Below, one piece after another: positions 3,001 to 60,624 of a DNA stretch of 64,000 nucleotides. Each line of letters opens with the position of its first letter. Within the stretch, counting starts at the first letter, position 1. The translations under genes were made by a program, and so were the position numbers. The stretch comes from Actinernus sp. WN-2022 (Eukaryota > Cnidaria > Anthozoa > Actiniaria > Actinernidae), in NCBI GenBank assembly GCA_030867875.1, contig JAOWCC010000237.1, positions 8,480,713 through 8,544,712 of the forward strand, in the 5' to 3' direction. The notes under the pieces are model-generated. The model was not told the origin of the DNA, made no database searches, and was given only the letters and a program-made list of their open reading frames with translations.

Positions 3001-3456
3001 GACTAACCCCTAATACGGAACCAAGCTCCATTATAAGTTAGGCTTAGACTTATCCAGAGGTAGGACTGGAATCCCGGTACCTTCGAGGCAGTCTCGGCGC
3101 TCATATTGATTAATGGCGTCGAGGGAGGTGGTATTGTTGCGTACGTAGTCTTGTAGGCAAGAGATCACTTTCTCTTGATCTTTGATTTTCTTATCCATTG
3201 CCTGGATTTGCTTTATTTATTTCCACCAGTGTATCATATTTACCAGAGAGAAATGATTGTGATGCTTCAATCGAGTCGAGACGTGTACTTTGTGCCTGAA
3301 TGGCAACACGAAGGCTTGTATTCGATAACCAAATCTCAGATCGAATTTCCGGCATAAACTCTTTCTTCCAAATTTCTCTTAAAGCTGTAGCGGTTAGGTA
3401 GGGAACTTCTGTCATCTTGTAGTGAGATTTAGGATCAATTCTCCTACTTTTCGATA
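1..3456 (-). mobile_element. Decayed LINE (CR1/L2-like) with ORF1 and endonuclease-RT
   Basis: A non-LTR retrotransposon relic read on the minus strand and cut off by the window start. ORF1 begins at the ATG at 3415 and shows a coiled-coil start (ALREIWKKEFMPEIRSEI), then a conserved block (IIVKFVRRDVREKMY) near 2930. Several single-base frameshifts break it. ORF2 follows: an APE-type endonuclease (LHCNIRSLPKN near 2270, DHIYSN near 1820, SDHLPV near 1760), then reverse transcriptase (NNYRPIS near 860, GIRGKPLDWFNSYL near 560). The catalytic FADD box is degraded to FAVDAN near 380. The C-terminal RT block (YLGIYLDENLNWKNQI) lies near 150. It cannot be autonomous now. Assignment to a CR1/L2-like clade rests on motif style only. 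The hAT element at 3462 split its 5' leader. Confidence 0.8.
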
Positions 3457-3461
3457 TAGTG
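3457..3461. repeat. 5-bp target-site duplication TAGTG, left copy of hAT element
   Basis: TAGTG directly precedes CAGGGCTTAAAATAACTGC. The same five bases follow the matching inverted terminus at 8472-8476. The pair marks the insertion of the element between them. Confidence 0.8.
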
Positions 3462-4259
3462 CAGGGCTTAAAATAACTGCTGCTCGGACGCCGGACAAGA
3501 TGACCGGCCAAACATTTTTTTGCCCGGACATGCTGCGTTCCAGGCCGGTCAAGACGAGAAAAAAAAACACACACACGAAATATGAAGTAAATAATTAACC
3601 AAACATAAAAATGCTAGACAACGATTTTATTGCTTTCAATCGTAGATGTAATTAATGCAAATTAATTATGTTTCAACTGCAGAAACGCACATGAAAATGT
3701 ATTGTGGATCCGGTAATCATATTTCTTCCAAATACTATTTACATAACAAACAAAACACCTTGAATATAAATAATTTATCTATATACAAACAAAACAACGC
3801 GAATGTAAATAGTTTATCTCTAGCTAACATTATTATACACTAACACCTATTTCGACAAAGGTTTTCCGACTGAAAGCGGCAAGCGACAAGCGATGTACAA
3901 GCGGAGTCAAGACCACAGACAAGCAAACATTAATTATCGCAGTATGTCACTGCAAAACGACTAAAAATAACCATACGTGTTGTACTGTAGGTTTTCGCGG
4001 TCTTGAGTTGTTATTTGTTGGGTGTGTATACAAATTATAATAAATTTATTCTCTTTCACCTCAGTCTTGCACATGAAAATATTGTGGGTCCGTATTCAAA
4101 ATCCAGGCAGGCAATTCCGTACCTTAACGATTTAATACTACATGATGTGTATATACAAACAAAACACCGTATATATAAATAGTTTAGACATGTATAAATA
4201 ACATAATCCGTCGAGTTTTAAAAATAGCTAATAATTACAAAAGTAATTGCTTCGGTTAC

Positions 4260-13985: not shown

Positions 13986-14271
13986 ATTTGTATTATACAT
14001 GTACATGTAGCTCAGTTATCCCGGACCTTTGCCATATAAGCCTCTGGCTTTGGCTTTTCATTTAAAAATATAACATGTGCTGTAAATAAATAAAGTTGAA
14101 CATATTGATACATACATCATGTAGCATTTGTTTCTAGGCATAATTTTCATTTATAAACATCTAATCGGGTACAGCTGGAAAACTAGTGTACATAATGTAT
14201 AATTTTTATTATCACTATTTATAGACTGTCGCTTTTAGGACATGTCCAATATCAACCAATTAGCTACCCTT

Positions 14272-15240
14272 AGTGTTATTAGAACTATTCAATTAATGAT
14301 CTTCGTTGCTCTCAGGCTTAGCACCAGGACATCTGCAAGATCAACTAAGCTACCCTTTAGTGCTATTAGAACTATTCAATTAATGATCTTCGTTGCTCTC
14401 AGGCTTAGCACCAGGACATCTGCAAGATCAACTAAGCTACCCTTTAGTGTTATTAGAACTATTCAATTAATGATCTTCGTTGCTCTCAGGCTTAGCACCA
14501 GGACATCTGCAAGATCAACTAAGCTACCCTTTAGTGTTATTAGAACTATTCAATTAATGATCTTCGTTGCTCTCAGGCTTAGCACCAGGACATCTGCAAG
14601 ATCAACTAAGCTACCCTTTAGTGTTATTAGAACTATTCAATTAATGATCTTCGTTGCTCTCAGGCTTAGCACCAGGACATCTGCAAGATCAACTAAGCTA
14701 CCCTTTAGTGTTATTAGAACTATTCAATTAATGATCTTCGTTGCTCTCAGGCTTAGCACCAGGACATCTGCAAGATCAACTAAGCTACCCTTTAGTGTTA
14801 TTAGAACTATTCAATTAATGATCTTCGTTGCTCTCAGGCTTAGCACCAGGACATCTGCAAGATCAACTAAGCTACCCTTTAGTGTTATTAGAACTATTCA
14901 ATTAATGATCTTCGTTGCTCTCAGGCTTAGCACCAGGACATCTGCAAAATCAGCTAAGCTACCCTTTAGTGTTATTAGAACTATTCAATTAATGATCTTC
15001 GTTGCTCTCAGGCTTAGCACCAGGACATCTGCAAGATCAACTAAGCTACCCTTTAGTTTTATTAGAACTATTCAATTAATGATCTTCGTTGCTCTCAGGC
15101 TTAGCACCAGGACATCTGCAAGATCAACTAAGCTACCCTTTAGTGTTATTAGAACTATTCAATTAATGATCTTCGTTGCTCTCAGGCATAGCACAAGGAC
15201 ATCTGCAAAATCAGCTAAGCTACCTTTAGTGTTATTAGAA
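14272..15240 (+). repeat. 87-bp tandem array, 11 copies
   Basis: Units start GTTATTAGAACTATTCAATT and repeat every 87 bp with only a few substitutions (for example GCTATT in unit 2, TTTATT in unit 10, CAAAATCAGC in units 8 and 11). Since 87 is divisible by three, one plus-strand frame stays open through all units (VIRTIQLMIFVALRLSTRTS per unit). The array lies just 3' of the Ulp1 gene. No splice sites, start context or known domain support translation. Confidence 0.9.
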
Positions 15241-15490
15241 CTATTTTATTTGCAACTAGAATGACCCAGAAATGAGCAGAATTCAGATAATTTTTAAAAG
15301 TTTGTTCTTCATCCATGTACATGTAGCAACAACTATGCAGCAGTATAGTTAAGTATACATATATACAGTATACATATAAATATACATTTATGGTCATTTA
15401 CTGTGCATATACAAAGTTCCATTCAACTACAATGAAATCTGGGGATTCAATAAAGATAAATACATACAGTTCTTATTACATTTCTACAAG

Positions 15491-17076
15491 TCATGTCCTC
15501 TCTTTCCATTGTAATATCTGCCAAAGAAGATGTTGTCGGTGCCCAACCATCTCAGAAAAATTCCAACTGAAGGCTGGAAACTTAGACAAAAGTAAATCCC
15601 TTGCTGACAGGATTACACCAACTCCACAACCTCCAGACCCAATTCCATATGTTGGCTGTGTTGGCATCCTAAAGCGTCGCAATGGAAGGGAAATATCCCA
15701 TTTGCTCATTATAAATGATGATGAACTGTTGTCCAACAAGTGGTGGAGTGCTTTCAGGAGAGTCTGTATGATGACATTGGTGTTGCCTGGGGGATTCATT
15801 CGAAGTCCATCGTCAAAGGAAATGTGCTTTGACTTGACATCGAGACAAAGCAATCCCCAGTGATTCCCATTGATGTGCAATGGGGTAAGAACCCATCTTG
15901 TTTCTTTCGAATACCACTTATCAAGGAAGGGCTGCAACTTAGTGCAAAGAAAAGCCAAATCCCCAGTAGCTGCCCATGTCTGCACCACTGAAGGGAGGTA
16001 AATGTTGCTTTCCTTGTTTCCTCCACTTCTCCCATAGAAGAGGCAAACAACATCAATTGTGAACCCTGTCAGCCACCTCTCACATGTAAGGCTTCCAAAA
16101 TCTTCCACATCAATGAAGAAATCCCCTTCACGCAACACTTCCTGGTTTGGTTTATATTCCAGGAGTACACTTTTGATGGCAGCAATTGCTTGAGGTGGAA
16201 TATCTCTGCTGTTTTGATCTAACCATTTCACTTCCTCTCTGACTTTATACTTCAGTGTTGCAGCAGTACAGGCCCTTCTCCATATTCCAAGGGAGCAGGC
16301 ATTGAATGTGCCAAGAGAGGTAATGCAAACTCCAACATCATCTTCATCAACATCAATGGCGTTATTCAAGAGTGTGAAGCACTTCTCAATAATTACTTCA
16401 GATGGCCTCACTCCAAGAGAAAGGGGGTTACTGAGACGCAAAGGGTTTACAGATAATTGGAGATCCTTCACTGAAATTGGTTTCACTGGTGGAAGTATCA
16501 AGGATGCAAGCTGTCCCCTTGTTGCTTGATGTGACATGCACTTCTTCAAATCTGAATAGACTTTCACAGGAGGGTGGGGCACATGCACATGTAAAGAGGA
16601 AGGCTGCTGTGAGGTTCCTTGAGATGAGGGAGGCTGCGAGGGCCCATGAGATGTGGAAGGCTGCTGTGAGGGTCCTTGAGATGAAGGAGGCTGCGAGGGC
16701 CCTTGAGATGTGGAAGGCTGCTGTGAGGGTCCTTGAGATGAAGGAGGCTGCGAGGGGCCATGAGATGTGGAAGGCTGCTGTGAGGGTCCTTGAGATGAGG
16801 GAGGCTGCGACTGGTGTGGCAAAGGTGTCACAACAGGATCCTCTTGAGCAAGTCTTTTCAAATACTCATTTATCCCAATCTCCCACTGTTCGTGGTCGTA
16901 TTCATACACTGGAATGGAGCCTGGTGAAACCTTGACAACCTTTGTTCCCTTCTCAGTTTCATATTCAAGGAAATCACCACCAAATAATCCTTCAAAGAGT
17001 TTATTAATGGCCGACATCCATGTAACATCATCTTTGGTCCAAGCCTGCACAGCATGTTGGGTGGACCAGCCACATC
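15491..17076 (-). CDS. Terminal exon: Ser/Pro/Gln repeats and Ulp1 (C48-like) protease domain
   Basis: The acceptor is CTTTAGAG|GATGTGG at 17077. The exon opens with CGWSTQHAVQAWTKDDVTW. A low-complexity block of 19-residue repeats (SQPPSSQGPSQQPST) follows at about 16815-16600; this is likely a flexible linker. The last 170 residues carry the Ulp1 signature: NGNHWGLLCLD (catalytic His), HISFDDG (Asp), PTQPTYGIGSGGCGVGV (oxyanion Gln region and catalytic Cys). All expected catalytic residues are present, so the domain looks competent. Stop TGA is at 15491-15493. The phase matches exon 12. Many eukaryotic DNA transposons carry such protease domains, so the gene may itself be transposon-derived. 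Confidence 0.85.
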
Positions 17077-23000: not shown

Positions 23001-26000
23001 TAATGGTAAGTCAGTTCAACTTTCCCGGGAATACAGATTTCGGGATACAGATTTCGTCCTGATTTAGATAAACTTTGGCTTCGATTTTCTCGGCCAAAAT
23101 ACGTTGTATCACCAAAATAACTGAAAACAATTAAACTCTCTATCTTTATCCAATTTACAAACTCTCGCTTTCAGCACGATTGTAAATCGGATAAAGATCG
23201 GCCACTCATTCTTTATCTATTACTATTACGAGGCATTTTTTACAATTTAATTACATGTACTTACCCTCCTATATTAGCCTTTGTTGTGATAAAATGTTCA
23301 AGACACACTGAATGGGGGCCTAAGTTACAGGAGCAATTCTGAAACAGGGTAATGATTATCATGTTAGGTTGAAACTTCAAGTCTTAGTTTATTTAACACT
23401 TTTAATCATTAATTTAATCATGATCATCATTATTATTTTTTTACCATGAAGTCTACCCATGGCCCATTGTCACATGCCTGGAACATTAATTTTTACTCAT
23501 TCTTTTGTGCTAAGTTTCCTTTTGCAGATGACAGCTACAATGTATCACATACATCACATTTCCAATTCAAGTTGAAAACATGGACAGGAAGTATTGTCAA
23601 TATGAGGCACAGTGTGCATACATTTTCAAGCAAGAAAAAAATAATGTGATAATTTATTCAAATATGGCTCAATCAATCAGATTTCCTCAGGCTACTAAAT
23701 CACCAGCAATGTACAAATGGACAATAATTACTGTGATTATATAGTCAGCTGTGAGCCTATAGGCAGTCTCCTCAGAATAGCTACAGTAAGTAGTGCCAAG
23801 CCCTTAATTACATACAAAATCACTTAGAAAACGAGAAGATTGACACCTGGGTTTTTGATTTATAACAATGCAGTGTGCATCTTCAAAATAATGTACATGT
23901 AAATGTGTTTTGAAAGGAAAATGAAGTTACACAAGTCAAAGTAATGCTTAGAATGTTCCAGAAATTCTAGTATGATATTTTTTGCTCTATTTATTTCAAA
24001 TGATGCAGTATTTTCACTGATTTAATGCACAAGTGATCGGATGTGATGGGAAGCCAATTGTGTTAAGTGGCACCATTGCATACTGTAATATCAAAATCCC
24101 TGAGTATAATTAGTCATGTCAGAAACATATACTAGACAAAAACCGGAGGGTTTATCTAGACATTTTAACTACAGTGTACAAATGTAGATGCAATATAATT
24201 GTATAATATGTTGTAATTTTCATTTTTGGGGGTTTATTTATTTTTCTTACACTCTGAAAGCAGTAGACAAAAATGTATGTATACAGTCCACTACTACTTA
24301 CCCTAATGGCCAAGCAAAAGAAACAAAACTCTACTGCCATGCCTTTCGTTGCAAGGCAGAAGTTCTCATCGTCTTTCTTCACCAACAGAAGATATAAAGC
24401 CTTCAGATCAAGAGTTACTACAGTCATGTATAAAAACAAAGTAAAAAAAGCACTTTAATTTTTTTAAAGCTGACATTATGATTCTACTGGAGCCTACAAA
24501 AGTACATGTATTTCAACTCTGCTTCACATAACCTGAATCAGAACACTGTTAACTTTTCATCTACATGGATCATGCAGCCCTTACATAAAAAAAACAGATG
24601 CATTGAAATGATCCAAACTAAGCTATTTTAGGCTTCACTGATTCACCCTAGATCCTGTTTGTGATACCAATATTCAGTTAATGTTTCCACAAAGGTGTGA
24701 AGAATCCTAATTTGAGCTACACTTTAAGCCCCCATCCCCCAATTATGCATGAACCATGATTTTACCTTTGAAGCTCACAGAGATTTGAACTCCGTCAACA
24801 GAAACTCCCTCTTTCTTGATGAAATCTTTCTGTCTGTTCAGATCAAACAACAACTTGGTAAGGCTCTCCCTGGAATACAAAAAAATGTATAACATTTAAG
24901 TTTGTACTCTTTCAGTTATCATCAGAATTACATGTACTACTTAATTGAGTTCATGATCCCTTGGAAAAAGCTTTACTGAATGGCAAACAAACTTTAATGG
25001 CCAGCCTTTTGCAGAAATGCATGCAATCATGTGGTTGTTAAGCGGGTTGGCAAAAAATCAATGTTTTAATTTGAAATTGTGAGAAAAATCTATTTTCTAT
25101 TAAATTAATGACTAACAAAAAAAAAATTATCTTAAGAAATAAAAATATTGGAACAGGCGAAAGAAAACTGTCAGGAGAGCATTTAAAGAATAAAGAATGA
25201 TAATAATAATTGAGACAGGCTAAAATCATATGAAAAATGTTTCAAAATACTAAACAACACATTTACATTGTATATCTTTTTAATATAATAATATACTGTT
25301 TCTTACGGTGGCCCACAAGGGCAATACAAAAATATATATGCCACTACAAAAATATAAATCGCACTACAAAAATATATATGCCACTACAAAAATATATATG
25401 CCACTACAAAAATATAAATCCCACTACAAAAATATATATGCCACTACAAAAATATAAATCCCACTACAAAAAAATATATGCCACTACAAAAATATAAATC
25501 CCACTACAAAAATATATGCCACTACAAAAATATAAGTCCTAGTACAAAACTATATGCCACTACAAAAATATAAGTCCTAGTACAAAAATGGGAAATTCCA
25601 GTACAAAAATATGTCCCAGTACAAAAATGTTTCCCAGTACAAAAAAATGTGGACTGCTTGTCACCAGTTTCCCTCGGTTGATACACAGGAAGCCCATCGC
25701 TAAAGGAAGTTGGATATAACAAATATGGCGGACGGTGTATCGAGCTGTCCACAATGTGAATTTCACGGCCTTGATAATACCTGTAAGTTTTGTCCTCTCT
25801 GCGGTACAAACATTTTGGATGAAGAAAGACAATTAATAGAGTATTATTTTTCAAGAGGATATGAGTATAAAAGCATTATTCGTTTGCTTTTGAAAGAACA
25901 CGGTATCAAAATGTGTGAACGGACTCTGAAATCTCGTCTACACGGTTATGGGCTGCGAAGAAGACTACCCTTATATGATGTTGGAAATGTACGACAGCGT

Positions 26001-29000
26001 ATCTCAAAGGAACTAGACGGCCCCGGCTGCATGGGAGGATACCGGTCAATCTGGCATACGCTACGGCTAGAGGGTTTTCAAGTGCCGCGGAACATAGTTG
26101 AAGAAATTGTTAGGGAACTCGACCCCGAAGGGTGCGAGACCAGAAAAGCAAAGCGATTGAGGAGACGCAGATACAGAGTGCCTGGCCCCAACTATTGTTG
26201 GCACATTGATGGCTACGATAAACTGAAACCGTTTGGCTTCCCTGTGCATGGTTGTATCGACGGTTGGAGCAGGAGAATCATGTGGCTACAAGTGGTAAGG
26301 TCAAACAATCGACCAGAAGTAACTGCATCTTTGTTTTTGCAATGTGTAGAAGATTGTGGCGGTTGTCCAGTCAAAGTAAGAAGTGATTGTGGAACTGAAA
26401 ATGGTGTTATTGCTGCAATGCAGTGTGAATTCAGAGGTAATGCAGAGGCTCATATGTATGGGCCATCCCCTGCCAATCAAAGAATTGAGGGCTGGTGGTC
26501 CTTCTATCGAAGAAACAGGTCAACTTGGTGGATTAATTACTTCAGTGATTTGAACGAAAAGGAGCTATTTAACCCTGGAAATGAGCTTGAAAAAGAAGCT
26601 TTGTGGTATTGCTTTTCTGGGGTTTTACAGAAAGATCTCGACATAGTAAGGAATCACTGGAACACACATCGAATCCGAGACTCAAGGCACAACACCATTC
26701 CTGGGATACCAGATGAGTTGTATTTGTTACCAGAGTGTCATAGTGGTGTTGATGGATTAATTCTTGGCATTGATAGTGAGCAACTTCAGTTTGTAGCTGA
26801 TAATCTGTTGCAGTGTGAAGATGAAAGTAATGTGTATCAAGACTATTTTGACTATATTTTATCTAATAGTGACTTAAAGTTGCCAAATGACTGGAAGGAA
26901 GCTGAAGAATTATATTTGCAGTTGATTGCAATTGGAAGTCAGCCGTGACTCGCAAGGGAAACATCACAGTTTAGTAAGACTTATAAAGTATGACCAATGG
27001 AGTTGGAAAACCGGAACAGCGATGAATCTTAGCAATTAATGAGTAAAAGTGTAACCTTCATTTAACCATTTTGATTGATTTCTGGTGCCCGAGCCTTGCT
27101 TTTGAGTGAGACAGGTAACCCAAATGGCAGATATTGACAGGAAGATGGTCACAGGGTAAACCGAAATTTAAAGAAAACTAACTACATTGTATTTGGGAGC
27201 AGATGACAGGTAAATTTACAGTGCAACTACACTTGAACCAAGGCCACCCAAGAAAATTTTAAAACAAATTATTTCATCACATTCATATATTTGATAACAA
27301 TGAATTGAAATGATAACTCAAGTTAAATCTTGTACTGCCAGTATTTTTATGGCAGGTTGTTGAAAAATGTACAGATCCTATAAGTGTTCAAGTACTTGAA
27401 ATATGTGATTGGCTAATGTCTTAGATTTTGCTTCAGCAAAAATCAGAACACTAGCCTCTGCATGCACAATGTGCATTAGTTTTAAGAAAACCGAGAGAAA
27501 TCCAGTAATCGGGTTTACTGTGGTAGAAAAACCTGGAGACTGGAGAGAGAAAGGGGGAAGAAAGTTGTTTTCCCTTTCCTCAGCCCCATCCCTCTCCTCC
27601 ACCTTGATACACAGGAAGCCTAATTTGCTTTCAATTCCCATTTGCTCGAGTTCCTTTAATAGGTGAATGTTTAGCCTGGAAATTAACTTTTGATAGATAT
27701 GGTGAAATTGATTTTGGTCAGAACATGTAAGGGTTGGCTGTATTTGGTGGGCTTGGAGGTTCTTCCCAGTGTCGTTCTTCCTCCCATCTACTTCCAGGCT
27801 GTGGTTTGATTCTCCATAAAGTAAATAGTACTTGAACTTTTAATATATTTTTTTATTTGAGTGTGGCATCATGAGTTATTTTACAACAGCGCCAAATTTC
27901 TTGCAATCTGATTGGCTTATTTTCATATGCAATATTTGGACAGACAACAAAAGCTGACACCATTTGTCAAGGAGTGCGCATGCACCTTTCGTTTGAAGCT
28001 AAAAGTGTTTTGTTGTTGTAAAATTGACTATTTAGTTTGTTGTTGTAAAAAACAAATTGAAGTTAGTTTTTGTGTCTGTCCTAATATTGACAATGATTTT
28101 CGTCATAACATGGTCAAAATAGCTGTAGATCCACAGCTATGTTATGATGAAAATCATTGTCAATAGTAGGACAGACACAAAAAACTAACCTCAATTTGTT
28201 AAATAGAGGTTTCTATTTCCAATAATTATGCTAATTATGTGACATGCGAGGCCAACAAATGTCACTTCTTTCTCCCTGTGAATGAAACTATTTCTGATTT
28301 ATACAAAATATTTGGTAAAATCACTGATAAAGGCCCAAATACTACATGGATGTTTAGAAAAATATGTATATTTCTGCCAGAACATTTTTGTATAATAAAG
28401 GAGTCCTCACATGTCGTCACATAATTAGCATATTGGAAATAGAAAACTCTAACTCATAGATGCAACACTCAAATTAAGAAATAGTTTACAATTCAACTAT
28501 TTACTTGATGGAGAATCGATTTTGGGCTCATATGCACTTTAAGGTTTTTAACGGTTTGTAAGCAGCTTGTAGCTGTTAAAAGTTCAAGACAGTGATATAT
28601 TATTTTTCTCAAGTGTGAAAGTTCCCCTCAGGACTGCCAGTGTGAGTTTATCAGTTGTGTTAATTCAGAAAATAAATAGTGCTAGAAACAGTTTCAAAAT
28701 TGGTATGAGACTTGCCTGCCACAGAGTATTTTCGAATGTCAACAAATATTGCTTTATTGACAGTCTCTAATGATAACTTCTATAATTACACAGAATGACA
28801 ATCAATATTCCTGAAAGTTTAAAATATTATTAAGCTAGTAATGAAACTATAGCTATAAACGGTACAAGCTCGGGTACTACATGTACATGTATGTTTAGAT
28901 CCAGCCTTCAATAACAAGTTTTATGGCCAAAATTGGTACATCATTATTTATGGTACATCAAAATTGACAACAAAATTGGTTTACTGGTTAAATATTGCCA

Positions 29001-32000
29001 AAGCCTATGGAATCTCTCACTGCTGACTCCACCATAGCTTTCATATCCTCTTCTGAAGTAATGTGTACAGGAATCTTCAAGATAAGATCACAGGTAGATG
29101 CTGTAGGGCGACATCGGCATCCTGTAGCACAGCCATGCACAAACTTTACTGAGAATTTCTTTGGAAATCCAAGCGGGGGTATGCCCTTGGATCCTGTAAG
29201 CCACTTGACAAAGTCCTCCATGCCCATTCCAGGAATACCTGTTTATTCAATTTAGAAAATTAGTCATGTACTTGTAGACATATAAACAGCTGCACTGTAC
29301 ATGTAGATAGAAAACATCACCCGTGTAACCTAGCTGCACAATCTATGAAAATGTTTCACTAAATCATGTAGCATATTACCCTGGATACCAGAGGTTCTTA
29401 TAATACCAGCTCTCTCTAATAACTATCATTTGTTATGAAATACACCAGTTGTTTGAGGTATTGACACAGTTAACCATGACATTTTAATTCATAAACTTGA
29501 ACATTATGGGATTAGAGGGATTGCTCTAAATTGGTTTCAATCATATTTATGTAATAGAAAGCAATTTACCTCTATTGGTAATACATCGTCTGAAGAGAGG
29601 ATTATTCCATGCAGTGTCCCACAAGGATCAGTGCTTGGAACAACTCTATTTTTGCTATATATCAATGATATCTCTAACAGCTTTCATATTTTTGCTGATG
29701 ATACCAATCTAATTTATACCAATAACAGTTAATTGCAAAATCTGGAAATGATCATTAATGAACAATATTTATTAGAACTGGTAACCAATTGGATTTGTTC
29801 AAATATTAAGCTTTCCTTACATATTATTAAAACAAATTTTGTAGTTTCCATCCTCACCAAAAATAAATAAACTATCCTATTAAATTCAGGGCTCAACCTT
29901 AACTTTTTGTAAGAGTATTTAGATTTAAATTTTAGTAAAGTAAACAAGCAACTTCCACTAGCCAAAACTGAAAATCCACTAGTCTTTGGCTAGTTGACGA
30001 CTGTTAAGGTCAAGCCCTGAAATTGGTACTAAATGGTAAACCAATAAAGTAGGAGAAAACAGTGAAATATCTTGGAATACTTTATTGACTGTAATCTAAA
30101 TTGGAAATCCTTTATACATCAAATTTCAAGAAAAATTAACAAGTATTGGTGTACTCTCCAAATTAAAATATTATTTAAATTACCTATTCTTACTAACTTG
30201 TATTATTCACTTATATATCCTTACCTCATCTATGGTATCCTTATCTGGGGAAATACCTACCAATGATACTACTATTCGTCCTTTATTCATCCTCCAAACA
30301 AAGGCTCTTCGTATCATTACATTTTCTAAATACGATGCACATTCTACCCTTTGTTTAGTAAACTTAAAATCCTGAATTGTATGATTTAACTTTCCTTCAT
30401 ACTGCATTATTTATGTTCCAGTTCCACACAAATATACTCTCCCATCTGACTTCAGAGATATTTTCAAACCACTCTCAAATGTTCACTGTTATAATACACA
30501 ACTAACTTCAAGCTCTTATCATCTTCCAATTATTCGGTATAGTAGTAGTCCTCTCTTAGTTCATAGTAATTATGTAGTTCCGGTGTTATGAGCTTCATAA
30601 TGCATGTAAATCTGGTTATTATTGTAGGATATGCATAAATTAGGTACCCCCAATACACACACACAGTCTGTTTACACTATTTAAGGCCCTGGGCCCGCTT
30701 CCTGAAAGCCCAATTAGCACTAAAAATAAAGCCAGATCAGTTAATTACCATGACAACTAATAGGTTTTGTTGAGAGATAATCCAGGATTAGCACTAATCG
30801 GGCTTTCACAAACTGGGCCCTGTTCCTGATCTTAGGTAATACATGTTATTTTTGGGCCCAAACATGTCTCATGCCATGCCTATGGCAATTAAATAATTAA
30901 CTGTTCTGATCACGACTATCCAAGCTCATATCACGAAATATTCAAAAATATATAGGGGTTTGTATGGGAACTTTGTTTACTAGCCAGAGATATTGTATAA
31001 TTTTTTTAATCGAATTTTCCTACCTTGCCACTGTGTTGTCTTGTGTGATGTTTCTCTCCTTTTCAGCTGGAATTTTTTTTCAAGTAAGAGCTCCGAAAAA
31101 ATTCTGGCTGAAATGCACCCAACAAGGAGAGAAACATCACACAAGACATCACAGTGGCAAGGTACTGTACATGTAGGTAATTTTATTCAAAAACTGTACA
31201 ATATCTCTGGCTAGTAAACGAAGTTGTTACATTCCCATACAAACCCTTATATTTTGAATACTTCATGATATCAGCTTGGGTAGCCTGTGTTCTGACTGTG
31301 TCTCAGGTAACTTGCAAGTGCAATGCAGGAAACACAATTTCCAGGTAACTTATACATGTACCATAGAATAGACATGGGAAAAATCTATTCACCTCACCTT
31401 TTTCCTCCACAAACTGAATGACATCACAGAATAATTTATAGGTGTCGATTTCTTTGTCCTTCATGACTTGGGCACAACTAAACTCTACCACAGCCTCATC
31501 CAATAAATTATCAGCAGATATTAGGAATTGCTGACCTGGCTGAGAAACTGGTTTCCACACTAAAGGGTGCTCTTGCATAGATTCAAGAACACCACATGAT
31601 GACAACCCCTCTTCCAGTTGCATTAGCTGTGGCAACCAAGCTGAAAGCTGGTCCTTCATACAAATTGACCTGAATTTAAAAAGCAATGTTTTAGGTGCAA
31701 AAATATAACTTTTATAAACAATATGAATGTCTCACAGGTTATTTTTTTACCATCTGGTGGTTATTATAATACGAGAGTACATGTATGAGGACATGATTAT
31801 AACTAGTTTATTGAACTATCGTGTGCATATAAAACTGACTGCTTTCACAGGTTATTTTAGGTCACTCTTTCCTGCATATTTAAACCTTTCTCCATGATGG
31901 TTCCTGTCACTTTTTCTTCAAACATTTTCAAACAACAATTATTTATTAATCCCTAATGGTAGCAGAAAACATTTTTTTTGCGGGAGGGGATTTTATGTTC

Positions 32001-35000
32001 AATGAATGCAGATTCATGCAAGTACTGGTATAAAGGACAGTGCAGGTAATTAGTGTTTCCATCATCAGTATTCAGGGCTCGAAATTAAGAAAAAAAAGGA
32101 GGCGTAATTTTACGCCAGGCTTAAAAAATTTAGGCGTAATTCTCCAAAATTTAGGCGTAATGTAATGTAAACTATTTTCCCGCGCAAAACAAGTTGTTTT
32201 GCATGACAAAAGGCAATGTACCTATAGATAGGAGCTGTCAAACTTTGACATTTTGCGGTTTAAAGTTCAGACTTCACACGCCAAACGTCGCCGCGTAATT
32301 AGTAAACTTTGCGTTTCAAACTTGAAACAACAGACAAAAAAGTTTACACTAAACGCTTGCTTGCAAATGGTAGTAATTTTTTCAAAAAAATCAAATAGTT
32401 TTAGAGATTTGGAAATAAGACCGACAAGAAGATCTAGGCGTAATTTTACGCCTAAGTGGAAAACGCTAGGCGTAAAACGAAAAAATCTAGGCGTATTTAC
32501 GCCCGTATCGGGCGCAATTTCGAGCCCTGGTATTAGCAATCGAGCATTTATAACCGGAACCAGAAGTTACAATAATTGTAACTTCCGGTTCCAATTATAA
32601 ATAGTAATGTTATACTACACTAGTTGATGGCTAAAGTGAACAATCGGCACCGAAAAAAAGTGGTCGGTAAGTGGTCAGCCACTTACCGACCACTTTTCTT
32701 GGTGCAGATTGTTCACTTTAGCCCGAGTTGACATTTTGACAGCTCAATGAGCTGTCAGATATTGACATGAACATACAGGCCATGTGCTTCAAGGCCATTG
32801 AACTAGTACAGTGTAGATTATGTTTCTAGCCAGTTTACGTACACAGAATGTTTAGCAGAGTTCTATGAGTTTAATCAGGATGTATAAAGAAAGTAATTTA
32901 TTTATTGTAAGCTTAAGAAAAAAGCCATTGTGATTTGGATCAATCTATCCACTGGCAGCTAAAACTGCAGCAGAGTAAGGTTTAAACATGATATGTATGA
33001 TTGTCTTATTGCCTAATGCAGGTAAACATTTTGTGTTGTTTCAGATCAATCAAATGTTCTATCTACTGGGTTCCTTGGTCCAATTAGCATAGTTGATTAA
33101 TATATGGGTAGAATGTGGCACTGTAAGATAGGGAGGGGAGTAGGGGAAGGATGTGATTGTTTAAAGTTCAAAGGACACATGTACATGTATCTAGATGTTT
33201 TTCTTACCTTACAATTTCCTTTGTTGAAGACACTGACTCCCTCTGTGGTACTCCTCTGTACCCTATGCTGTCCAATATATCCAGTACATCATCCTTTATG
33301 AGAATATCACGGACCTCTTCATCTGTTTTTGCACTTGCAAGCTACAGGAAAGATAAAGAAATGGTTTATAAAGTCAGAAACCATCCAGTTTAGTACTGCT
33401 TTATATTATATACCTAAGCATGCAGTTATGGGAAAATACATATCTTTATTTACTGGACACTGTCACAGGACTCCCTTCATTATAAATGCTCTTCAAGAGA
33501 GTTGTGTATACCAAAAACTACTAGTAATTAATTGTGAAACTTTCATGGCTAATACTACAAATGTATAACTAGATATCTAATAATAATTTATAATTAAAAT
33601 CAGAATGTATAACTTACAGTAAAAAAAATATTAGAGGCATTTAATTGATGGCCTGAAAAAATATAAAGTTAAACTTAGTCTAGTAAATGTAATACAATGT
33701 AGATAAATGGCTTTAATGATTTAAAAATACATTAGCTTCCCTTTCACCCATGTAATCATGTGTAAGGAAAATAGTTGCATGCAAGCACTCAAAACAAGTT
33801 GTATAACATTGGTTGTTATATTGGAAATTGAAACTACTATTTAATATTAGAAGTCCTTCAAAAACTCGGGCACTATCCATGAGAAAACTAGCCAATAAAC
33901 TGGTAGAATTGAAGGGCTGTGTGCAACAAGGGTGTAAGTACATGTATCTCCTGATCGCATTCTAAATTCTCCTTCAATTTCTTTGTTTTCTTAGGGAGAA
34001 TTTAGAATGTGATCAAGAGTCACTTAATCCCTTTTAGCACACAGCCCTTCAATATTATTGGTCATGTGAGCAACCTTTATACCCAATAAAAACGCTGAGG
34101 GTCTATCAAGTTTCACCCACTGAGAATTGACTCTTCTTAATATTTATGTGCATATAATTAGCTACTCGAAAACGAGGCTATCCCCGCATCGTTGCTTAGC
34201 TGAAAAGCAAAATGGTGTCGCGACAGAATATTGCTGTGTTTCTCTATGCGTTGGGAGACAAAAGGAAAAATCCTGAATTGTCCTTTCTAACTTGGATGCA
34301 CGTTGCAGCATCCACGATGCGAGGATAGCCTCATTTTCGAGTAGTGAATTAGATATGTGCATAAATATTAAGAGTGAAGGGGGTCTCTATAAAAACTTGT
34401 GTTTGATGCCTGCTAAAAATCATCAATTCTAAAGTTTATATTACAAAAAAATAATTTTAGGTTATTATCTTTTAAGAAGCATAATTTTTTAAGCAACTTA
34501 ATAAACTTGCACTAGGGTTGTTTAGCCTAGTGCCCACATGTTTTTATACCCGATACAAAACTACTAATCATTTATTAAACAGTGCATAACATCCAGTACT
34601 TGCTTAATGCTCTGCAAGGACTATAGCTACATATAGCTTACATTACTCACCTGGGTTGCAATGTCTTTTGCAAGCTGTTCAGTGTTGTTTTGGGGGCAGA
34701 GTGGCTCCCTGCACAGGTAGGAATAAACCACAGGTGCAAGAAAGTTAGGTGCTGGACCTCCTTGCAGAATTGACATAGCCATGATTTCCCCAGCTAGACG
34801 AAATTCTCCTGAAGTGACGGCAATCAGTGATTTTGTTGGCATACCACTTGGGAAATATTTACGGTGTGCTATCTCCAACAAGTCTAAACAGCAATTATAA
34901 CAGGATAACACGAAAGGATAAGCAATATGGACGACTGTATGTATTATTTTAGTTTTCTAACAATTAACTTCAAAGTCTTGGTTCTAGTTATACCTCTTAT

Positions 35001-38000
35001 TGATGATGTTCATTAATACAAGTGGAGTGACATCATGATTATACTGCTGCAGGCTTTTACTACTTTATCATAAATGAATCTATTTTGTGTGTGAATTTAA
35101 ATAATTATTATTGCTTTATGTGCAGTATTAGCATACACCGACCATGATTTCCTCTCAAAATTGTTTAAGAACAGCTGCTCTAATTTTAACAGTGCTTAGG
35201 TTATCAAAAAACCTATTTAACTTGTCCTATCAGATACTTTATTAGAAAGACAACAATATTAATATTAGAGTCTATTGTCCAGGAATTGATATTAAATAAT
35301 TACTCACATCTCCATTACTCATAATTTTCAAAATATGTTGCAAGCCCTTTCCCACTAAAACAGTTCAATGGAGAAATACTAGCTAGCTCACATAGTTTAC
35401 AAACAACAATAAAAAAATATTATATTATTATTGGTCACTTGTTAATACATGTATCTGTAATATACAAACCTGAAAACAATTCTCTACGTGGTCCACCATC
35501 ATCTATAGCAGGCTCACCCAAGAACACCACTTTTATCTTTTTTTCTGGCATAACATTTCTTTTTCTTTCCTTTTGAAAGTCTGCCCACAATGTCTTTCTC
35601 CGGACATTTATGCGTATTTGCTCTCCGTGGACCAAATTGTTCTGAAGTTGCAGAATTAACTCACGTATTGTTGGCTCAGGTGTGGCTGCTGTGCTGTCAC
35701 TTGTGTGAGTTGCTTGATCCAGAGCCTGCTGACTTGTTGATTCATCTGAATCTAAATCAACAGATTCGACAAACCAAATGGCACATAAGTCAGCATGCTC
35801 AGCTATTTCCTTGACTGGAAATCTTTTGTAGCATGTAGGGCACTCAATCGATCCACCACCTCTATTCTCATTGTATGTGCTTCCAGTTCCAGTACACTCT
35901 TCCACTGACTGCGACTGTGTCATATGTGTGGGTGTTGCTGTATGACTGAAGCAGTGTGATATGGGCTGCAACCATTCGACTGGCTTCAGCTTCTTGTCAT
36001 CATCATCACTAATTTCGATGTCACTGCCACTGGCACTGGGTTCATTGGAACTTGACGAGGAATCTTTCTTTTCAAGGGATTCTCTAAGTTGATCAAAAAT
36101 GTCGCCAACTGGAAGTAAATAGAAGACAATTCTGGCAAAGCCAAGACCAGATTCCTCTTTATATCTGAATAAAGAAAAGGGCTCTTCAGTTCCAGGAATA
36201 AACTTCACTTCAGTACCATCTTTATAGACTAGACGGTACTCGCCTTTGTTACCAAACCTTTTGTTGAAAGTACTGTGCTTCTTGATGGCTGCTTGCAAGA
36301 TGTTTTCAGGTGTGGCAAACGAAAGTACCTTTAACGGGAGATTTTCTCCTCTCTTTATAGTATCTTTATCCTTCATTACTCCAACTTGAATCACAACTTC
36401 TTTATCGTCTATCTTCCTTTTCTTTGTTTTCTTTCTTATGGAGAAGGAGTTTCTTTCAGATTCCTTTTTGGCTTTGAAGGAAATGAAACTTGGCAAATCA
36501 AACTTTGAGTTTGACTTCGTTTGTTTCGATGCTGGTAAATCCTTTGTCGACTCAAAGTCAACGGACGTTCGTGGTGAGTTACTTCCAGTAACTCGACGAA
36601 AAACCTCTGCTCCACATTTAGGGCAATACATAAACGTACTTTCTAGTCTATTTGCGCACTTGTGACAGTAACAACCTGGAATGCGAGCGGCCATGCTTTC
36701 ATGCTCCACACTTTTGTGCGATCGAGTGCGCGAAGATTGATAGGCAGATACACCATGTATGGAATATATTTTTGTACTGGGAAACATTTTTGTACTGGGA
36801 AACTTTTGTAGTGGGAAACATTTTTGTACTGGGAAACATTTTTGTACTGGGAAACTTTTGTAGTGGGAAACATTTTTGTACTGGGAAACTTTTGTAGTGG
36901 GAAACATTTTTGTACTGGGACTTATATTTTTGTAGTGGCATATATATTTTTGTAGTGGGATTTATATTTTTGTAGTGGCATATATATTTTTGTATTGCCC
37001 TTGTGGGCCACCGTAGTTTCTCATCATTTCAAAGGTATGTGTACATTGTAGCATGGTAGTATATTTTAATACATGCACATGTCACTGGGTTCTCAGTAGA
37101 AACCAGCAACTGGCAGTTTTCCACTACCTGTTTGCCAATGATAATATAAGTAGCTTCCTGTTCTGACTTTTTAAATGTTCAGAAGATTCTAGCTCATACA
37201 TTTCCTGCAAGTTCAGCCACCTGTTTCCATGTCCACTACCTGAGCAATATCATACTGAGATATCATACAGTTTTTACCTGTCTTCCTTACAGTTGGCTAA
37301 GGCTACAGGATACACTGACTTGCAGCTCTGGTTTGACCCATTAGGGCTCACTAAAGGTACCACACCCACAAGAACTTGGTTTCTTCCTGAAGGAGTAAAA
37401 AGAAAATAGCTTTAGCCATAATTATGTCATTAATTAATTGTTATTATACTACAGTTGTTCAATATTGTACTTCCACAAATAAAGCACAATTGAGAAAATG
37501 GTGTTAATTGTTCTTAGCTAAATTATATTCAATAGAATGAAGTATATTTAATTGCAAATAAGGGTACGCTTTACTAATAATTATTATACCTAGAGACACT
37601 TTAGGATTAATTTAGTGATTGATACAGCTGACCAATAAATTGAAGTAGAAAATTCAAGGATTTGACTGTTATTTCATACAGTAAATAATTGTCATACTGT
37701 ACTTACCAAAGAACGGTCGTCCATCCAACTTGAGGTTAAGCTGGAGCTTCTGAGTCAATAGCCCATGAAGTCGCAACTCTCTTGCCTGCCATACAATTAT
37801 GGACCGTAGTCCAACCTGAAAACCAGGGATGTCTTCATCTGGAACAGGAATTATTTCAAACAACTCCTGTACTTTCTGGAAAATCATGGAGCTTAAAGCT
37901 TTGATGCTGTTTTTGGTGAGAAGCAAACCAGTGTCTGTTGCTTTCTAAGAGAAAGAGACATCAGAATTACAAAATTGTGCAATGCAAGGTTGGGCTACTA

Positions 38001-59148: not shown

Positions 59149-60624
59149 ATGCAAGAATCAGAGGAACACTCGGATAGCGAGTTTTACTATCCCGACGAAG
59201 ACAACAACAGCAAAAACATGGCTGCCGGAGACGAAATTCGCGAACAGTCAAACAGCCAAGAGGAAATTGATAATTTTGTCAGTGACCAAAAAAGTGCCAA
59301 CACCTCCAAGAAAACGAAAAGTGACCTCAACACCTTTCGTCGCTACTTACAGTCAATCGGAAAGTCAAATGTTAACGTAGTCATAGAGAGCTTACCTTCG
59401 AGCGAGCTCGACCATTTGTTGTCAAAAATTTTCATAAACGCTCGCAAAGTGAACGGCGAGGATTATGAACCGGATACTCTGTCTGGCCTCCAACGAAGTA
59501 TTCAGCGACACCTTACTGAGCTGAAGTCCACAGTTAATATCCTTAAAGATGCTGAGTTCAACAAGTCCCGTAAAGTCCTCACAGCCAAACGTAAACAACT
59601 GGTAACACTCGGCAAGGGAAACAAGCCACAGGCAGCGAAATCATTGACTGACGATGAAGAAAGTATGCTGTTTCAGTCGGGACAGTTCGGGGAAGACAAT
59701 CCTGAGGCCCTTCAGAGAGCAGTGTGGTGGTTCTTGGCAATGCAATTCGGCTTTCGTGCGAGAGATGAAAGCCGAAAAATGAAATGGGGCGATGTAAGCT
59801 TGCAACAAGATCCCACAGATGGCCGTGAAATGCTCGTATGGCTGTCAGAGCGGGGCACGAAGACAAGAAAAGGACAGGAAAAAGGCCACCAGCGACAGTT
59901 CCAACCCAAGATATATGCAAGTGGTACAGAGAAATGCCCCATAAAGTACTACAAGATCTTTCGTAATCACCGTCCAGCCGAGATGAACCATTCCGAGGCA
60001 CCGTTTTTCCTTGCTGTAAATTATACACGGGCTCACAAAAATAGCATTTGGTACAAGAAAGCCCCGCTCGGAAAGAATGAAATCGGTAAATTTCTCACCA
60101 AAGCAGCCACACAAGCCGGTATCCAGCGTCCAGGAAGAAAGATAACAAACCATTCAGTCAGAAAAACCTGTATTTCCCGACTGCTTGACGCTAATATTCC
60201 TGAAAATTACGTCGCGCAGCTAAGTGGGCACAAGAAATTGGAAAGCCTCCAATCGTACAAAACCGCCAGCCTCCAGCATCAGCGACAAATGTCTCTCATT
60301 CTCAGTCGAGCACTAGGACAGCCATCAGCATCCTCCACTGCAAACAACCAACTGGCTTCAGAGTCCGCTATTGTACCGCAGTTATCTGCTCCAACAGGTG
60401 CAACAGTGCCAGTTCGCCATGAAGTACTGCAAACCACGTCAAATTCTCTCACTATAAACCAGGGAAGTTCAGAGAACAACAACTCTTGTGAAGCCATTTT
60501 TAACGGAGCCAGCATCTCCAACTGCCAGTTCCAAATCTTTAATGGTCCTATAAAAGTTGTCCAAGATGGAAATAAAAGGCGAAGAGTTGTCATAGAAAGC
60601 GACGATGAAGGATTAGACGACTGA
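59149..60624 (+). CDS. Crypton-like tyrosine recombinase (DUF3504 type), intact
   Basis: Uninterrupted 491-residue frame from ATG 59149 to TGA. An acidic N-terminus precedes an SAM-like core-binding domain (residues 53-140, KKTKSDLNTFRRYLQSIGKS). The catalytic domain follows: R203 in FGFRARDESRKMKWGD, H335-x-x-R338 in TNHSVRKTCISRL, H361 in QLSGHKKL and the nucleophile Y370 in LQSYK, nine residues later as in active enzymes. The C-terminal tail is Ser/Asn-rich and ends acidic (RRVVIESDDEGLDD). Crypton-derived genes such as KCTD1- and ZMYM2-type host genes share this DUF3504 core; here the catalytic residues are all kept. Direct repeats flank the region. It may be a live Crypton or a domesticated copy. 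Confidence 0.85.
   Translation: MQESEEHSDSEFYYPDEDNNSKNMAAGDEIREQSNSQEEIDNFVSDQKSANTSKKTKSDLNTFRRYLQSIGKSNVNVVIESLPSSELDHLLSKIFINARKVNGEDYEPDTLSGLQRSIQRHLTELKSTVNILKDAEFNKSRKVLTAKRKQLVTLGKGNKPQAAKSLTDDEESMLFQSGQFGEDNPEALQRAVWWFLAMQFGFRARDESRKMKWGDVSLQQDPTDGREMLVWLSERGTKTRKGQEKGHQRQFQPKIYASGTEKCPIKYYKIFRNHRPAEMNHSEAPFFLAVNYTRAHKNSIWYKKAPLGKNEIGKFLTKAATQAGIQRPGRKITNHSVRKTCISRLLDANIPENYVAQLSGHKKLESLQSYKTASLQHQRQMSLILSRALGQPSASSTANNQLASESAIVPQLSAPTGATVPVRHEVLQTTSNSLTINQGSSENNNSCEAIFNGASISNCQFQIFNGPIKVVQDGNKRRRVVIESDDEGLDD

Follow-up and report, generated by a model that had tools for sequence, protein, structure and literature searches.

The element and its two genes

An element spanning positions 25304-37015 of the window (the whole 64-kb stretch of DNA that was analysed) has inverted ends of the form TACGG..CCGTA and carries an integrase gene and a HECT gene, which are convergent on opposite strands. 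Its features are as follows.

25298..25303, no strand: left target-site duplication GTTTCT, read directly, a perfect match to 37016-37021
25304..25422, + strand: left terminal inverted repeat, about 119 bp at ≤10% mismatch, the first 57 bp identical
25325..25645, + strand: left subterminal array of 20-bp repeats (TACAAAAATATAAATGCCAC-like)
25725..26948, + strand: DDE integrase/transposase, 407 aa, open; core 150-324; N-terminal CxxC..CxxC
26208..26210, + strand: catalytic D162 codon
26385..26387, + strand: catalytic D221 codon
26487..26489, + strand: catalytic E255 codon
28988..29238, - strand: HECT exon 5 (C-lobe, catalytic cysteine, stop)
29090..29092, - strand: predicted catalytic Cys671 codon, aligned in one column with the catalytic cysteine of Rsp5
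31398..31669, - strand: HECT exon 4
33208..33341, - strand: HECT exon 3
34651..34883, - strand: HECT exon 2
35470..36694, - strand: HECT exon 1 (zinc ribbon, ubiquitin-like module, C2HC/UBZ-like finger, start of HECT N-lobe)
36768..36994, - strand: right subterminal array of 18-20-bp repeats, oriented towards the HECT gene
36897..37015, - strand: right terminal inverted repeat, pairing with the left end
37016..37021, no strand: right target-site duplication GTTTCT, a perfect match to the left one

The left end starts with TACGGTGGCCCACAAGGGCAAT at 25304, and the reverse complement of this sequence finishes at 37015. The near-identical inverted ends (57 bp identical) and perfect GTTTCT duplications of the original prediction were confirmed by re-reading. 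Within the window, the 20-bp tip was present in only two places, at both ends (≤3 mismatches; 0 in 100 shuffles). Both genes start just inside the ends and face inward, as had been described, with the integrase ATG at 25725 (+) and HECT exon 1 running from 36694 (-). No Rfam match was obtained in the window at gathering scores.

The open 407-residue integrase with D162, D221 and E255 was found as predicted, and it matched the Pfam integrase core rva_4 at 8.8e-37 (127 bits, cut-off 26). Its fold matched those of TnsB, IstA, MuA and the foamy-virus integrase with E values of 5e-6 to 4e-4 and low whole-chain TM; a sequence comparison with solved structures gave no match at E≤1. The N-terminal CxxC..CxxC is zinc-ribbon-like with a Pfam score below the cut-off, and by eye has cysteines at positions 8, 11, 20, 23 and 26. 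No HHCC motif was seen by eye before the core, as no H-x(3-7)-H pair precedes the cysteines. The CxxC..CxxC is missing in several integrase relatives (P0032, P0039, P0054 and P0087).

The five HECT exons join by predicted splicing to encode a protein of 704 aa, with GT..AG borders at 4/4 introns. The four joins are consistent with the annotated relatives P0001 and P0002 (compared by eye), and exon 1 ends at the point where the frames of relatives depart from the alignment. The introns contain nested insertions. The window protein scored 47.8 bits against Pfam HECT (curated cut-off 23.9). As criterion for a HECT E3, a bilobed domain with the catalytic cysteine about 30-35 residues from the C-terminus was used; profile A1 matched both Rsp5 lobes, and the candidate cysteine is residue 671 of 704. 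On these sequence features the protein is predicted to be a ubiquitin ligase. The five-exon frame with its HECT domain and catalytic cysteine thus stood as first proposed, while the zinc ribbon and C2HC finger gave Pfam matches only below the curated cut-offs. The window protein matched no PHD model up to E=5; its zinc ribbon gave a weak match to a C3HC4 RING (0.24), and a weak PHD_ash2p_like match (0.014) was present in 1/15 relatives. The AlphaFold model of the relative P0002 was poor overall (pLDDT 61, HECT part low) and only its residues 86-189 were used; Foldseek gave no match to it at E≤0.001, with HECT chains weakly present.

Recurrence and divergence of the gene pair

A second copy in the same genome (C1706:8860621-8871689) shares the ends of the window element, carries both genes (98-100% identity) and is flanked by a different duplication, CTTTAT, which means that the HECT gene was mobilised together with the element. 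The integrase of this copy is open, and its HECT gene is probably broken by a frameshift (a 1-bp deletion in exon 4). The two copies differ at 13/3332 coding and 42/6887 non-coding positions (p=0.19), and the HECT changes comprise six replacing and three silent ones. As coding and non-coding rates are similar and the HECT changes stand at 6:3, recent purifying selection was not seen between these two copies.

A HECT-family match was present within 10 kb downstream at 16/20 further integrase loci, on the opposite strand in 16/16, and was lacking at the other 4/20. Among 16 loci with sequence on both sides, 15 have at least the HECT N-module, and at 10/16 the pair lies between TACGG ends that are flanked by perfect 6-bp duplications; a single insertion probably accounts for two of the ten. 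The co-occurrence of both genes between matched ends, which had been put forward as a check, was found in the same genome. Three of the 16 loci have less: C685 and C398:10.29M keep the N-module alone, the latter having lost the HECT domain with ends and duplication perfect, and C1684 has no partner gene. For the small elements tblastn returned the N-module only, which had suggested that HECT was lost; this was rejected when profile and Pfam searches recovered a diverged HECT exon from five of them. Tandem arrays lie near both ends in 12/12 bounded elements, and their repeat units differ between families.

Among the places listed, 13 pairs of integrase and HECT exon 1 were found within 20 kb, compared with 0.23 expected under uniform placement; all 13 are opposed with the partner downstream. 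Among the same places, 64/77 HECT exon-1 places had no listed integrase within 20 kb, and 89/102 integrases had no listed HECT partner within that distance. The flanks, amounting to 66,876 distinct bp, gave no match to either HECT or integrase at E≤1e-4.

Across the diverged families of this genome, the partner gene occurs in three forms. Two type C proteins reached 30.1 and 29.6 bits against Pfam HECT; the two type B proteins tested did not reach the model and are related by sequence only. A reading of type B as intronless was rejected, because a separate zinc-ribbon piece lies upstream in C116 and C398:24.04M. The partner gene co-diverges with the integrase, the identities of integrase and N-module being correlated (r=0.63, n=10; 5 of 20,000 permutations). 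It also shows long-term constraint, with HECT dN/dS of 0.10-0.21 in three computable pairs, two of which are not independent; three saturated pairs had pN/pS of 0.35-0.41, above the integrase.

Outside this genome, the Desmophyllum pertusum proteins P0001 (HECT) and P0070 (integrase) have the consecutive locus tags OS493_029427 and OS493_029426, and were the only HECT and integrase matches on contigs of the same size (834,273) among the best 120 of 1977 integrase matches. The claim of an IS3EU-type element that carries a HECT gene is thus borne out by the second insertion, the 16/20 loci, the 10/16 enclosed pairs and this coral pair. Among GTDB genomes, a bin contig yielded a single distant relative. 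Scans of viral contigs gave four pattern matches with the integrase and 39 with alignment A2, none of which was a relative.

Relationship to IS3EU and other transposons

IS3EU elements have a DDE integrase-like transposase, TA..TA ends and 6-bp duplications (PMC10045372, PMC12730594), and the fungal members have ends TAYGG..CCRTA (PMC12730594). The window element has a DDE integrase-like transposase, TACGG..CCGTA ends and 6-bp duplications, and before its core lacks the HHCC motif, as expected of IS3EU. It fits the IS3EU type by ends and duplications, an assignment based on features. It resembles the described elements in transposase, ends and duplications and differs in its second gene, HECT; neither paper mentions "HECT" anywhere in its main text (PMC10045372, PMC12730594). 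A literature search, mostly of titles and with Repbase reports outside its scope, gave no report of an IS3EU element with a HECT gene, in agreement with the original view of the element as undescribed. The element is judged to be a new two-gene variant of IS3EU, consisting of integrase and HECT. We consider it probable that it is a complete IS3EU-type transposon with two convergent genes, whose HECT gene has travelled along with it and is met again as the partner gene in diverged families.

Accessory genes have been described for other transposons. Fungal TET+ IS3EU elements have the transposase and an alpha-kinase gene in opposite orientation, and the author suggests that their TET/JBP enzyme counteracts silencing (PMC12730594). 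They are like the window element in having more than one gene and an opposed second enzyme; the enzymes there are an alpha-kinase and a TET/JBP dioxygenase, whereas here a HECT protein is found in an animal. VANC of the Arabidopsis VANDAL elements is an anti-silencing protein whose targets are fast-diverging, non-coding tandem repeats (PMC10398659), and it belongs to the MuDR superfamily (PMC12730594). The likeness lies in an accessory protein of a DNA transposon and in tandem repeats that diverge in non-coding parts. VANC differs in coming from another superfamily and in binding sequence-specifically, while recruitment of HECT to the repeats is a proposal. In the TransibSU/RAG1-RAG2 transposons of animals, the transposase likewise has a dedicated second gene as its partner (PMC4411706). 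The window element shares this arrangement; TransibSU/RAG1-RAG2 belong to another superfamily and are not known to have a separate HECT protein.

Possible roles of the ligase

RAG1 also has a ubiquitin-ligase RING, and G2E3 has N-terminal PHD/RING fingers. The window protein has the HECT domain in common with G2E3 and G2E3-like proteins, and has a zinc ribbon, a ubiquitin-like module and a UBZ-like finger instead of the PHD finger.

The same pair occurs in the second copy and in several related families, which makes the ligase a likely working part of the transposon. That it is instead a host HECT gene which by chance became enclosed by transposon ends, or came to lie next to an integrase, is next to impossible, and for the window element this was ruled out by the second copy with its different duplication. 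The many HECT exon-1 places that have no listed integrase would suit such a gene, but the repeated enclosure by ends and duplications, and flanks free of HECT and integrase, argue against it. A captured passenger carried by chance and without a role is very improbable: the partial HECT genes at C685 and C398:10.29M and the frameshift in the second copy speak for it, whereas the single arrangement at 16/20 loci, the three forms, the presence in another species, the co-divergence and the long-term constraint all speak against it.

It is likely that the ligase would help the transposon to move or to escape host silencing. The integrase would bind the ends, excise the element and insert it with 6-bp duplications; at this step the ends, the duplications and the conserved catalytic residues are observed and the chemistry is deduced. 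The N-terminal zinc ribbon and ubiquitin-like module may bring the HECT protein to the element or its integrase, where it would ubiquitinate proteins. Host silencing machinery would be the favoured target, and the diverging subterminal repeats would be the likely recognition sites. This anti-silencing step is proposed tentatively, and its nearest rival is regulation of the integrase, in which the ligase would ubiquitinate its own integrase to limit or time transposition, or to clear it from the ends after insertion. Integrase control seems rather unlikely. It would accord with the co-divergence of the two proteins and with the CxxC..CxxC with which both begin in the window, through which they could share DNA or a complex, but this motif is missing in several integrase relatives, and the interaction is hypothetical. 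A ligase that restrained its own element would also be difficult to maintain in three diverged forms, unless every copy were subject to it. Less probable still is an action on host cell-cycle or DNA-repair proteins that would, as in a G2E3-like role, provide favourable timing for excision and gap repair. P0004 and P0016 were named G2/M phase-specific E3 ligase-like by their depositors; these names are unsupported. P0016 is only 22-25% identical, and no PHD finger was matched in the window protein.

Returning to the anti-silencing reading, a whole animal branch of IS3EU might, with similar reserve, be a two-gene system in three gene forms whose members stayed together through deep divergence. 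Its ligase would be directed by the zinc-ribbon/ubiquitin-like module to the fast-evolving subterminal repeats to strip silencing, and decayed ligase copies would be one source of the many G2E3-like HECT genes annotated in cnidarians. The element would offer a clear example of a cut-and-paste transposon of eukaryotes that retains a ubiquitin ligase as its regular companion, and it makes a general question testable: whether ubiquitination serves transposons to overcome silencing or to adjust the transposase they encode. For annotation, the consequence would be that part of the HECT genes in coral genomes may be transposon and not host genes. HECT-less copies of the element, together with identical HECT genes at fixed host loci without terminal repeats, had been named as evidence that would count against the original prediction. 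The first part was found in C398:10.29M, with its intact ends. The second was looked at in one of the 64 unpaired HECT exon-1 places, the only one read, which keeps the element's subterminal repeats upstream.

The element and its second copy

The window (C942:8480713-8544712 in the 1.39-Gb genome) and a second contig contain the following features of the predicted IS3EU-type element.

Window 25304-37015: window element, 11,712 bp
Window 25725-26948, plus strand: integrase gene, open, 407 residues with D162/D221/E255
C1706:8860621-8871689: second copy, 11,069 bp, tips as in the window element, CTTTAT on both sides
Window 32073-32529: MITE-like insertion in HECT intron 3, 457 bp, ends CAGGGCTCGAAATT
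Window 29400-30640: reverse-transcriptase fragment in HECT intron 4 (PQGSVLG and FADDTN motifs by eye)
Window 28067-28183 and 31021-31164: near-perfect hairpins with 45-nt and 54-nt arms

Both strands of the window element start with TACGGTGGCCCACAAGGGCAAT. The matched inverted ends and perfect GTTTCT duplications of the original prediction were confirmed, with 57 bases identical between the ends, end repeats of ~119 bp at ≤10% mismatch, and GTTTCT on either side as the target-site duplication. The 20-bp tip had no further occurrence in the window besides the two ends, inside which arrays of 18-20-bp repeats were present. The integrase was also as predicted in frame and active-site residues, and matched the Pfam integrase core rva_4 (8.8e-37). 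In Foldseek, its predicted structure (mean pLDDT 82) matched TnsB, IstA, MuA and foamy-virus integrase at values of 5e-6 to 4e-4; TM-scores over the whole chain were low.

Both genes of the second copy were 98-100% identical to those of the window element. As the duplications differ (GTTTCT versus CTTTAT), the two copies are separate insertions and the HECT gene travelled with the element, which bears out its predicted place within the transposon. The integrase of the second copy was open. In the HECT gene of that copy, exon 1 has lost 6 bp in frame and exon 4 has lost 1 bp, and the gene is probably broken. The copies differed at 13 of 3332 coding and 42 of 6887 non-coding sites (p=0.19); with 6 replacing and 3 silent differences in HECT and 3 and 1 in the integrase, these were too few for recent selection to be assessed.

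The MITE-like insertion has a 5-bp duplication (GTATT), and its site is empty in the second copy, which also lacks a stretch of roughly 250 bp close by (about 32580-32830). HECT intron 4 aligns over 2137 bp in both copies, so the element carries the reverse-transcriptase fragment. The hairpins are likely small nested elements.

Recurrence of the integrase and its partner gene

At least 106 integrase matches were found in the genome (102 of 2764 candidates scored). Twenty further loci, ranking 3 to 27 among the matches listed, were chosen, passing over five duplicates that were the same or nearly so, and 10 kb was searched on the downstream side of each. A HECT-family match (E≤1e-4) was present at 16 of the 20, always on the opposite strand; four loci (L017, L031, L032 and L034) had none at this threshold within that distance. 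Co-occurrence of the two genes between matched ends, the proposed check, was found from the integrase side: among 16 loci examined on both sides, the partner gene was present at 15, at least in its N-terminal part (N-module), and TACGG ends (0-2 mismatches in 18) with perfect 6-bp duplications bounded 10 (TCAATA, TGAAAG, CTGTTA, ATTTTT, GTTAAT, GATATC, GCATCC twice, CAAATG and GATAAG). The two GCATCC loci are probably one insertion on two contigs. Including the window element and second copy, there were 12 bounded elements of 3.7 to 11.7 kb, representing 11 distinct insertions. The HECT partner gene is not an isolated capture. Flanking sequence (66,876 distinct bp) contained neither HECT nor integrase matches at E≤1e-4. 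At C1706:1847700-1859699 (L037/L024), an IS3EU element (CAAATG) was nested within other IS3EU ends (CACAAC).

Pairing was also counted over at least 102 integrase and at least 77 HECT exon-1 places. These came from 106 and 118 rows, respectively, after fragments belonging to a single place had been combined, each search scoring about 100 candidates. Among the matches listed, 13 pairs lay ≤20 kb apart, compared with 0.23 expected under uniform placement, all 13 being opposed with HECT downstream; 89 of the 102 integrases and 64 of the 77 HECT places had no listed partner within 20 kb. For the integrases this partly reflects search sensitivity, as the more sensitive search gave a match at 16 of 20 loci. 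At one HECT-only place (L045, C1312:184398900-184401399), subterminal repeats of the element directly precede exon 1 and similarity ends within that exon; neither an element tip nor the remainder of the element was found within the 2.5 kb examined.

Forms and long association of the partner gene

Three forms of the partner gene were distinguished. In type A (window, second copy, C235 and C734, with C813 assigned on those exons at hand) the HECT domain spans several exons and has the motif STCDL. In type B it is a single long frame, open with 650 residues at C635:12.75M and C1706:1.85M and in pieces at C116, C398:24.04M and C540; a separate zinc-ribbon piece lies upstream at C116 and C398:24.04M. 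Neither of two type B proteins tested reached Pfam HECT. Their kinship to the family comes from tblastn (for example E 6e-35 to residues 47-661 of the protein relative P0002) and a profile with two type B proteins among its seeds, and a cysteine is at the same place in both aligned proteins. Type C (C888:86.38M, C635:28.01M, C635:65.64M, C888:36.11M and C814) combines zinc ribbon and ubiquitin-like module with a separate diverged HECT exon, which scored above the Pfam cut-off in both cases tested (30.1 and 29.6 bits). HECT sequence was present at 13 of the 16 loci, the N-module alone at two (C685 and C398:10.29M) and neither at C1684. Another type C HECT piece, lying beyond the bounded element at L020 (about 3346-4242, minus strand), probably belongs to a neighbouring element.

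Integrase and N-module identities were correlated (r=0.63; 5 of 20,000 permutations as high) across ten representatives, namely nine loci and Desmophyllum pertusum, near-identical or incomplete loci being excluded. Pairwise dN/dS of the HECT coding parts was 0.10, 0.11 (these two pairs not independent) and 0.21 where dS was computable, at dS near 3; three other pairs were saturated (pN/pS 0.35-0.41). For the integrase, dN/dS ranged from 0.04 to 0.10 or was saturated, with pN/pS of 0.17-0.29. The two D. pertusum proteins, an integrase annotated in part (284 aa, 75% identical) and a HECT protein (52% identical), have consecutive locus tags and a contig size of 834,273 in both records. At the N-terminus of the exon-1 protein P0003, an extension resembles the subterminal repeat (PVQNCISVQKYIP), and the integrase P0024 has a similar one (both by eye). 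A distant integrase relative (32%; L001 1839-2474) was found on a contig binned as Myxococcales, possibly eukaryotic contamination.

Known systems, possible role of the ligase and neighbouring features

IS3EU elements are described with TA..TA ends and usually 6-bp duplications (PMC10045372). Fungal TET-carrying IS3EU elements have TAYGG..CCRTA ends and carry an alpha-kinase gene in opposite orientation to the transposase (PMC12730594), so a second opposed gene in IS3EU is not new; in the window element a predicted HECT ligase takes that position instead. The original prediction knew of no standard description of IS3EU with HECT, and no report was found in the published papers searched (Repbase lay outside the search); a search for the word HECT in PMC10045372, PMC12730594, PMC4255032 and PMC9587614 gave no occurrence. 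As far as the literature searched shows, a HECT ligase as the second gene of IS3EU is new.

The two genes lie between the ends and duplications, have conserved active-site residues and have moved together. The integrase would move the element, and the HECT protein may be brought to the element or to the integrase and then mark a protein there with ubiquitin. We tentatively favour silencing factors as its targets, a reading that may well prove wrong. The reason is that tandem arrays were present near both ends in all 12 bounded elements (best-scoring periods 20 to 60 bp), and the array unit varies between families while the tips remain alike. This resembles the targets of VANC anti-silencing proteins, described as diverging repeats of this sort (PMC10398659). 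Fungal IS3EU elements, in turn, have a TET/JBP enzyme to which the author of PMC12730594 ascribes a likely role against methylation. The closest rival is that the ligase controls its own integrase.

Three further open frames lie elsewhere in the window.

Window 59149-60624: 491-aa frame matching DUF3504, QRICH1 and phage integrase (tyrosine recombinase)
Window 15491-17050, minus strand: 519-aa frame whose match to Ulp1/C48 protease is marginal, at 20.9 bits against a cut-off of 20.7
Window 14242-15264: tandemly repeated frame, about ten copies of the unit VIRTIQLMIFVALRLSTRTSARSTKLPFS
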